Assembly (NCBI GenBank): GCA_021372575.1
Contig: JAJFUE010000204.1
Span: forward strand, 1 to 34,653
Direction of reading: 5' to 3'
DNA from: a bacterium
GTDB taxonomy: Bacteria; Sumerlaeota; Sumerlaeia; MVZB01
DNA length: 34,653 nucleotides
Part shown: piece after piece, positions 7,806-19,697 of the stretch
Layout: each line of letters starts with the position of its first letter
How positions within the stretch are numbered: the first letter of the stretch is position 1
Program-made: the position numbers and the translations under genes
Notes under the pieces: model-generated
Database searches by the model: none
What the model was told of the DNA's origin: nothing
What the model saw: the letters and a program-made list of their open reading frames with translations, nothing else

Positions 7806-7990
7806 GGGAGCCTCATACAAAAGTCTCAACCAGGACCAACGCAGAGGGAAACCGTTGAAACGGTTTCCCGAAGGAAGGGTAGCGTGGACCCCGCGATGAA
7901 TCGCGGGGTTACGAGGATGGGTGCTTAATCATCGAGCGCTTGGGGGCTGATGGGTGACGGCGTTCTCTCCTCTTTTTGCAAGAGGCTCAC
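7806..7990. repeat. Family B palindromic element, copy 1 (MITE-like)
   Basis: The 185-bp element has terminal inverted repeats: GGGAGCCTCATACAAAAG on the left and CTTTTTGCAAGAGGCTCAC on the right. Inside are two perfect palindromes with a 2-nt GA centre: an 11-bp stem beginning GGGAAACCGTT (7847-7870) and a 10-bp stem ACCCCGCGAT (7889-7910). It aligns along its whole length with 8736-8922. It encodes no transposase, so it would be non-autonomous if mobile. Confidence 0.85.
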
Positions 7991-8752: not shown

Positions 8753-8922
8753 GTTTCAAACAGGACGAACGCGGAGGGAAACCGTTGAAACGGTTTCCCG
8801 AAGGAATCTGTGCCTCGACCCCGCGATGAATCGCGGGGTTACAAGGATTAGGTGCTTTACCATCGAGTGCTTGGGGGGGAGAAACGCACGTGCGTTCTCT
8901 CCTCTTTTTGCATGCGGCTCCC
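8736..8922. repeat. Family B palindromic element, copy 2 (MITE-like)
   Basis: The 187-bp element has left terminus GTGAGCCTCTTGCAAAAG and right terminus CTTTTTGCATGCGGCTCCC. It carries the same two perfect GA-centred palindromes as copy 1 and lies in the same orientation. Unlike copy 1 it also has a third palindrome, around ACGCACGTGCGT near 8884-8895. It occupies the upstream region of the endonuclease III-like gene. Confidence 0.85.
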
Positions 8923-14588: not shown

Positions 14589-14600
14589 GAATTAGATTTC

Positions 14601-14708
14601 AATGAGAAATGAGAAATGAGCAATGAGAAATTTAAAATGATAAGCAATTCGCCTTCAGAAGCATGACCCCGAATTCCGTTTCTCATTGCTCATTTCTCAT
14701 TTCTCATT
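14601..14708. repeat. Perfect 30-nt inverted repeat of AATGAG-type units
   Basis: The arm 14601-14630 begins AATGAGAAATGAG and is the exact reverse complement of 14679-14708. The spacer is 48 nt. A third, direct copy with one mismatch is at 18535-18564. The pair would form a 30-bp AT-rich hairpin between two glycosyltransferase genes, starting 13 nt after the first one's stop. Confidence 0.92.
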
Positions 14709-14724
14709 CAATTTGTATTAACTT

Positions 14725-19440: not shown

Positions 19441-19697
19441 TTTGAAACCGTTGAAACGGTTTTCCGCAGGAAGGGTACTTCAACCCCGCGATAAAGCGCT
19501 TGTCATTCCCCAAATTCTCTTTGCCCCGAAGGGGCCGCTGCGCTTCGCCGGGGGCTACTCGCGGACGCACCTTTGGTGCGTTCACATCGCCAGTCGCGGC
19601 CTGAATGCAATTATTTGCTCATTATAACTTGGGGAATGGCAAGCGATGAATCGCGGGGTAACGAGGATGGGCGCTGGATCATCGAGGGGGCGTTCTA
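19441..19697. repeat. Family B element, copy 3, degenerate and interrupted
   Basis: The ACCGTTGAAACGGTT palindrome is at 19447-19461, and the left half of the ACCCCGCGAT palindrome is at 19483-19492. After a 155-bp insertion the right half resumes at 19648 (GAATCGCGGGGT) and continues into GAGGATGGGCGCTGGATCA, matching copies 1 and 2. The outer terminal repeats are not recognisable. Confidence 0.8.
19493..19647. mobile_element. Element C: 155-bp MITE-like insertion inside family B copy 3
   Basis: It has terminal inverted repeats GCTTGTCATTCCCCAA (19498-19513) and TTGGGGAATGGCAAGC (19629-19644), 15 of 16 matching. It is flanked by the 5-bp direct repeat GCGAT (19488-19492 and 19643-19647). 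Removing it restores the uninterrupted family B palindrome seen at 7889-7910 and in copy 2. Internal hairpins are CCCC/GGGG (19524-19534) and ACGCACC/GGTGCGT (19565-19581). There is no reading frame for a transposase. Confidence 0.85.

Follow-up and report, generated by a model that had tools for sequence, protein, structure and literature searches.

The third copy of a palindromic repeat, which we call B, is split at its axis by a short insert that is very likely a member of a MITE family that prefers REP axes and is mobilised in trans by a DDE-type transposase. The repeat lies in the 34,653-nucleotide stretch of DNA analysed here (the window), contig C67 of G000, a MAG of 4.63 Mb and 214 contigs. 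The other genomes used in the comparison were G001, a family-level relative from another genus, one contig of which corresponds to the MAG ADurb.BinA292 of candidate division BRC1 (Sumerlaeota), and a third genome, G002.

The split repeat and its insert

Comparison with other copies sets the length of the element in the window at 145 bp (positions 19499-19643, no strand assigned). It begins with the terminal inverted repeat CTTGTCATTCCCCAAAT (19499-19515, plus strand) and ends with CTTGCCATTCCCCAAGT (19627-19643, minus strand), which matches the left repeat at 15 of 17 positions. Other copies run from CTTGTC to GACAAG, the window copy having GGCAAG at its right end. On either side of the element stands a 10-bp target duplication, CGATAAAGCG on the left (19489-19498) and CGATGAATCG on the right (19644-19653), the two being identical at 8/10 positions, and outside these are the outer arms of the split palindrome, ACCCCG (19483-19488) and CGGGGT (19654-19659), all on the plus strand. 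The first hairpin of B, AAACCGTTGAAACGGTTT, can be recognised from its sequence at 19445-19462 (plus strand), and it is likewise present upstream of most B copies, both empty and filled. When the flanks of the window copy are joined without the left 10-mer, the result is ACCCCGCGATGAATCGCGGGGT, which is identical to both of the empty targets in the window, B copy 1 (7888-7909) and B copy 2 (8818-8839), each on the plus strand.

The initial annotation had described B copy 3 as interrupted at its palindrome by an insert with terminal inverted repeats and no transposase, had pointed to the intact palindrome elsewhere in the window, and had proposed that a 155-bp deletion would restore it. All of this holds, the 155 bp corresponding to the element plus one duplication. 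Its finer details have to be redrawn: the borders it placed at 19493-19647 shift to those given above, the inverted ends are genuine but measure 17 bp with 15 matches instead of 16 bp with 15, and the 5-bp GCGAT it took for the duplication overlaps only part of the real one.

The window copy has no room for a transposase gene and is an internally shortened version of a form of ∼290 bp: its left part (query 13-73) and its right part (query 67-201) match the copies on contigs C1, C4, C11 and C45 separately, with more sequence between. An Rfam search of the insert region gave no match. The neighbouring genes are metallophosphoesterase-like and histidine-kinase-like, both on the minus strand. Other palindromic structures are found elsewhere in the window. 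One has 47-nt arms that are 85% complementary (1631-1677 and 1807-1853) and is adjoined by GGAAACGGA-type repeats in inverted orientation (1548-1628), the whole structure covering 1548-1853; at 14598-14711 there is an inverted repeat whose 33-nt arms, 97% complementary and composed of AATGAGAAATGAG units, enclose a loop of 48 nt.

Copies in two genera and the search for a transposase

At two mismatches or fewer, the end sequence CTTGTCATTCCCCAAAT has 38 matches in G000, compared with 0 for a reversed-pattern control, although a few of the two-mismatch matches probably arose by chance. The ten complete copies used from this genome measure 95-316 bp. G001 has an element that keeps these ends but differs in its interior; it matches in about 40 places, many of them truncated, and its complete copies are mostly 206-208 bp. 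Among 40 genomes of the phylum, the end sequence was found in G000 and G001 only. A wider search for the exact end in one genome per species, covering 84,980 species, returned five matches, of which the only family member was the BRC1 relative, and none was found in the viral contigs searched. The proposal in the initial annotation of a non-autonomous element directed at another repeat, which would lose its footing if the insert had no further copy, or none with common ends or duplications, is thus supported: other copies share the ends, and many of them occupy the axis of a palindrome and are flanked by target duplications, the length of these being 10 bp and not the 5 bp expected.

The interiors are diverse. 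In G000, the elements on C79, C10, C19 and C124, and also those on C26 and C135, have an end in common but not an interior. Four of these loci (L132 on C79, L133 on C10, L139 on C19 and L144 on C124) represent a second element type, with the left end CTTGTCATTCCCCAAA as its only shared part and with inverted internal blocks that recur at other places in the genome; its right end was not recognised. A third interior type, at L207 (C135, ∼1-60), seemingly holds the 5' end of a group II intron, and at L041 (C43, 1555-1627) an element with the common end sequence contains a group II intron that matches Rfam RF00029. Many matches in G001, for example L105, L108 and L113, consist of the inner block alone (∼query 97-202) without CTTGTC ends, and this block may be a separate repeat nested in the MITE.

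Inverted ends combined with a duplication of fixed length are the signature of DDE transposition and, as none of the copies could accommodate a transposase, the family would have to be transposed in trans. A transposase with matching ends, which the initial annotation had suggested looking for, did not emerge: with DDE_Tnp_1 and Transposase_mut (PF01609 and PF00872) as queries in G000, G001 and G002, no matching autonomous element was found. The DDE_Tnp_1 genes are of the IS1182, IS4 and IS1634 types in G000, with others in G002, and no DDE_Tnp_1 locus in the three genomes has CTTGTC-type ends. Transposase_mut is represented by a remnant only in G000 and by one gene in G002, and the element-rich G001 has neither domain. 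The single IS4-type transposase of G000, on C171, belongs to an IS bounded by other ends, GAATGGCACTGACTTAAGC. The sequence inward of unpaired ends consisted of repeats without coding capacity and, in one case, a group II intron, and no transposase was seen there. Multi-copy ISs are easily missing from MAGs, and the MAGs compared here are incomplete.

Target duplications and target repeats

The length of the target duplication stands out clearly when the flanks of 20 complete copies (10 per genome, with two doubtful pairs excluded) are compared at lengths from 3 to 16. Left and right flanks are identical at a fraction of 0.59 of positions at length 10 and at 0.32 or less at every other length. 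Re-paired flanks give 0.43 at length 10 (sd 0.03), a value raised by the small number of families to which the targets belong, and the observed identity was reached in 0/2000 permutations. Two copies have perfect 10/10 duplications, one on C1 of G000 (CGATTTATCG) and one on C66 of G001 (CACTTCAGTG). By our own classification, the G000 copies with flanks from a single site (window, C4, C113 and C1) have 7-10 matches out of 10, and those with flanks from different sites, 6/10 of the complete copies, have 1-6. Such mixed flanks require either recombination between copies or mis-assembly of the draft MAG, and the split in match counts is the pattern expected if copies have recombined. The same has been proposed for ISRm22, some copies of which have non-matching duplications ascribed to recombination between copies (PMC1525189). 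The nested repeats appear to recombine, which bears on the origin of mosaic repeats and on rearrangements.

Repeat mis-assembly might also have joined the insert into the palindrome of the window copy itself, given that G000 is a draft MAG of many contigs and that several other copies have mismatched flanks. We consider this exceedingly improbable, because the window copy is flanked by both halves of one B repeat and by an 8/10 duplication, and its ends are common to dozens of copies across two separate MAGs.

The targets concentrate at the axes of three or more families of repeats, and a few copies lie in poorly palindromic sites. In G000, the B axis CCCCGCGATNNATCGCGGGG flanks 14/36 ends (by the script's motif) and the axis of a second repeat, C, GTAGCCCGAGCGTGAGCGAGGGACTAC, is found at 10 ends on one side and 4 on the other; in G001, a repeat termed R1, CCCGCCACTTCAGTGGCGGG, flanks roughly 15/35 ends. 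Empty sites are numerous, for B in G000 and for R1 in G001. A search for other mobile elements at B axes yielded 15 matches to B half-sites lacking the other half next to them, 12 of which adjoin the present element and three unrelated sequence. In repeat C, insertions on the two sides are one base apart in register, which counts against the main explanation, as do the mixed flanks, the imperfect 8/10 duplication of the window copy and the failure to find a transposase with these ends in the searches described above.

Matches to Y1_Tnp number 13 in G000, 2 in G001 and 5 in G002, and two of the target repeats are found beside such genes. R1 stands on both sides of a RAYT gene on C26 of G001, and a B variant lies ∼340 bp from the RAYT domain of C76 in G000. 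A B-type array also adjoins the RAYT of L155 in G002 (C417, ∼1880-2330), where no fewer than five tandem units, each made of AAACCCGTTGAAACGGGTTT and CCCCGCGATGAATCGCGGGG, recur with an 84-bp period, and its two hairpins resemble those of B. As interspersed palindromes flanking Y1_Tnp genes, B and R1 have the appearance of REPs associated with RAYTs. Repeat C begins with GTAG and thus resembles GTAG-type REPs (PMC3733652); no tie to a RAYT was found for it. Another RAYT gene (L158, G000 C118:35460-35801) has a hairpin beginning GTAGCCCCCGGCG on both sides, in inverted orientation, and the same hairpin is part of the MITE interior; REP-type hairpins seem to be built into the MITE itself.

A RAYT could in principle have spread insert and arms together, as a larger nested-palindrome unit of REPIN type measuring at least 177 bp. 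Insert and arms do indeed make one palindrome that, as ssDNA, folds into a long hairpin (-52.6 kcal/mol, z -6.9), G000 has its 13 Y1_Tnp matches, and the copies on C11, C23 and C30 have B arms too. Yet this reading is largely refuted by the range of flanks, as the same ends occur amid quite different outer sequences (B, C, R1 and non-repeat sites), and intact B stands alone in many places. Nor do filled B repeats form a lineage apart: mean similarity is 0.58 between filled repeats, 0.60 between filled and empty ones and 0.59 between empty ones, and, because filled repeats are no more alike than empty ones, the insertions are independent events, as opposed to the amplification of a single composite. 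Y1 transposases are not expected to leave a direct duplication of 10 bp, and the insert has terminal inverted repeats and such a duplication, whereas REPs and REPINs have subterminal hairpins instead of inverted ends and make no duplication. We regard joint spread by a RAYT as quite improbable and continue to favor a MITE that entered pre-existing repeats.

Target recognition

If the insert is indeed such a MITE, a DDE-type transposase would recognise its 17-bp inverted ends in trans and make cuts with a 10-bp stagger at the axis of targets that are symmetric, usually of the form CCC[C/G]-N10-[C/G]GGG, and the staggered cuts would lead to duplication of the 10-bp apex. RAYT-associated REP palindromes would present such targets many times, so that the element accumulates there, and REPs would act as intergenic safe havens. 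The ends themselves carry a common half-site: CC is present outside the junction, at positions -14/-13, in 31/36 and 33/36 ends of G000 and in 27/35 and 28/35 ends of G001, and nearly all targets read roughly CCC[CG]-N3-T-N2-A-N3-[CG]GGG, where T occupies -7 and A occupies -4.

Instead of the symmetric sequence, an extruded hairpin, either a cruciform or a single-strand apex, might guide insertion. In favor of this, the targets reconstructed for several copies score 8-10 complementary pairs out of 11, where random sites average 2.9, and the axis is used in three different palindrome families. However, the copies on C113 (G000) and C15 (G001) have 8/10 duplications at poorly palindromic sites that score only 4 and 5 of 11, so that a perfect hairpin seems unnecessary, and nearly all ends have the CC half-site in common. 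We are inclined to think hairpin guidance the less likely possibility, and the site sequences lead us to prefer a transposase that reads a symmetric sequence to one that reads a cruciform. One tentative idea is that the mini-transposon lineage has specialised on RAYT REPs generally, its transposase reading a palindromic architecture, such as symmetric GC arms spaced by one helix turn or perhaps a hairpin that is extruded, and not one sequence, and thus following the REP family that happens to be abundant in a given genus. If true, one mobile repeat parasitises another. With independent insertions in different REP-like families in two genera, recognition of sequence and recognition of structure can be compared.

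Relation to known systems

The initial annotation had likened the insert to IS1397, a comparison that does not survive the length of the duplication. IS1397 belongs to the IS3 family and duplicates 3-4 bp, lengths at which flank identity in the 20 copies is at background. Like the present element, IS1397/ISKpn1 and ISPsy8 (IS3 family) insert inside REP/PU palindromes, but they encode transposases and ISPsy8 duplicates 3 bp, whereas here 10 bp are duplicated and there is no gene. Considering axis targeting together with a duplication close to one turn of the helix in length, the IS4 family, and for example ISRm22, appears to be the better parallel. IS4-family transposases are DDE enzymes with a YREK motif. 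ISRm22 of Sinorhizobium meliloti (IS4 family, subgroup IS4Sa) likewise inserts at the axis of a REP palindrome (PMC1525189; subgroup PMC2266710); it differs in being autonomous with its own transposase, in having 6-bp duplications according to Tobes and Pareja, and in being confined to one REP family in one species. Duplications in the IS4 family are ∼10 bp or about one helix turn (9-13 bp), and some members have conserved outer target arms (PMC2266710). The 10 bp found here fall in this range, which would indicate a likeness in working and not membership of the family.

Bacterial MITEs such as RUP, NEMIS/Correia and Nezha are non-coding, measure 70-300 bp, have terminal inverted repeats of 15-30 bp and make a target duplication (PMC3733652). 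The present family resembles them in its small size, its non-coding nature, its shared ends of a length within that range and its duplication of fixed length; it differs in its marked preference for REP axes and in that no cognate IS was found here. Pneumococcal BOX, RUP and SPRITE elements insert into one another, the part of that work considered here reporting no fixed axis (PMC3049150). In relation to REPs, REPINs and their RAYTs, the targets B and R1 look like members, and the inserted element, with its terminal inverted repeats and duplication, is a guest in REPs and not itself a REP. A partial literature search found no earlier description of a gene-less, REP-targeting element in Sumerlaeota, and an earlier report is possible. 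REP targeting is known for autonomous ISs of five IS families (PMC1525189), and MITEs themselves are common; what is new here is a gene-less element that uses several target families and can be compared between two genera.
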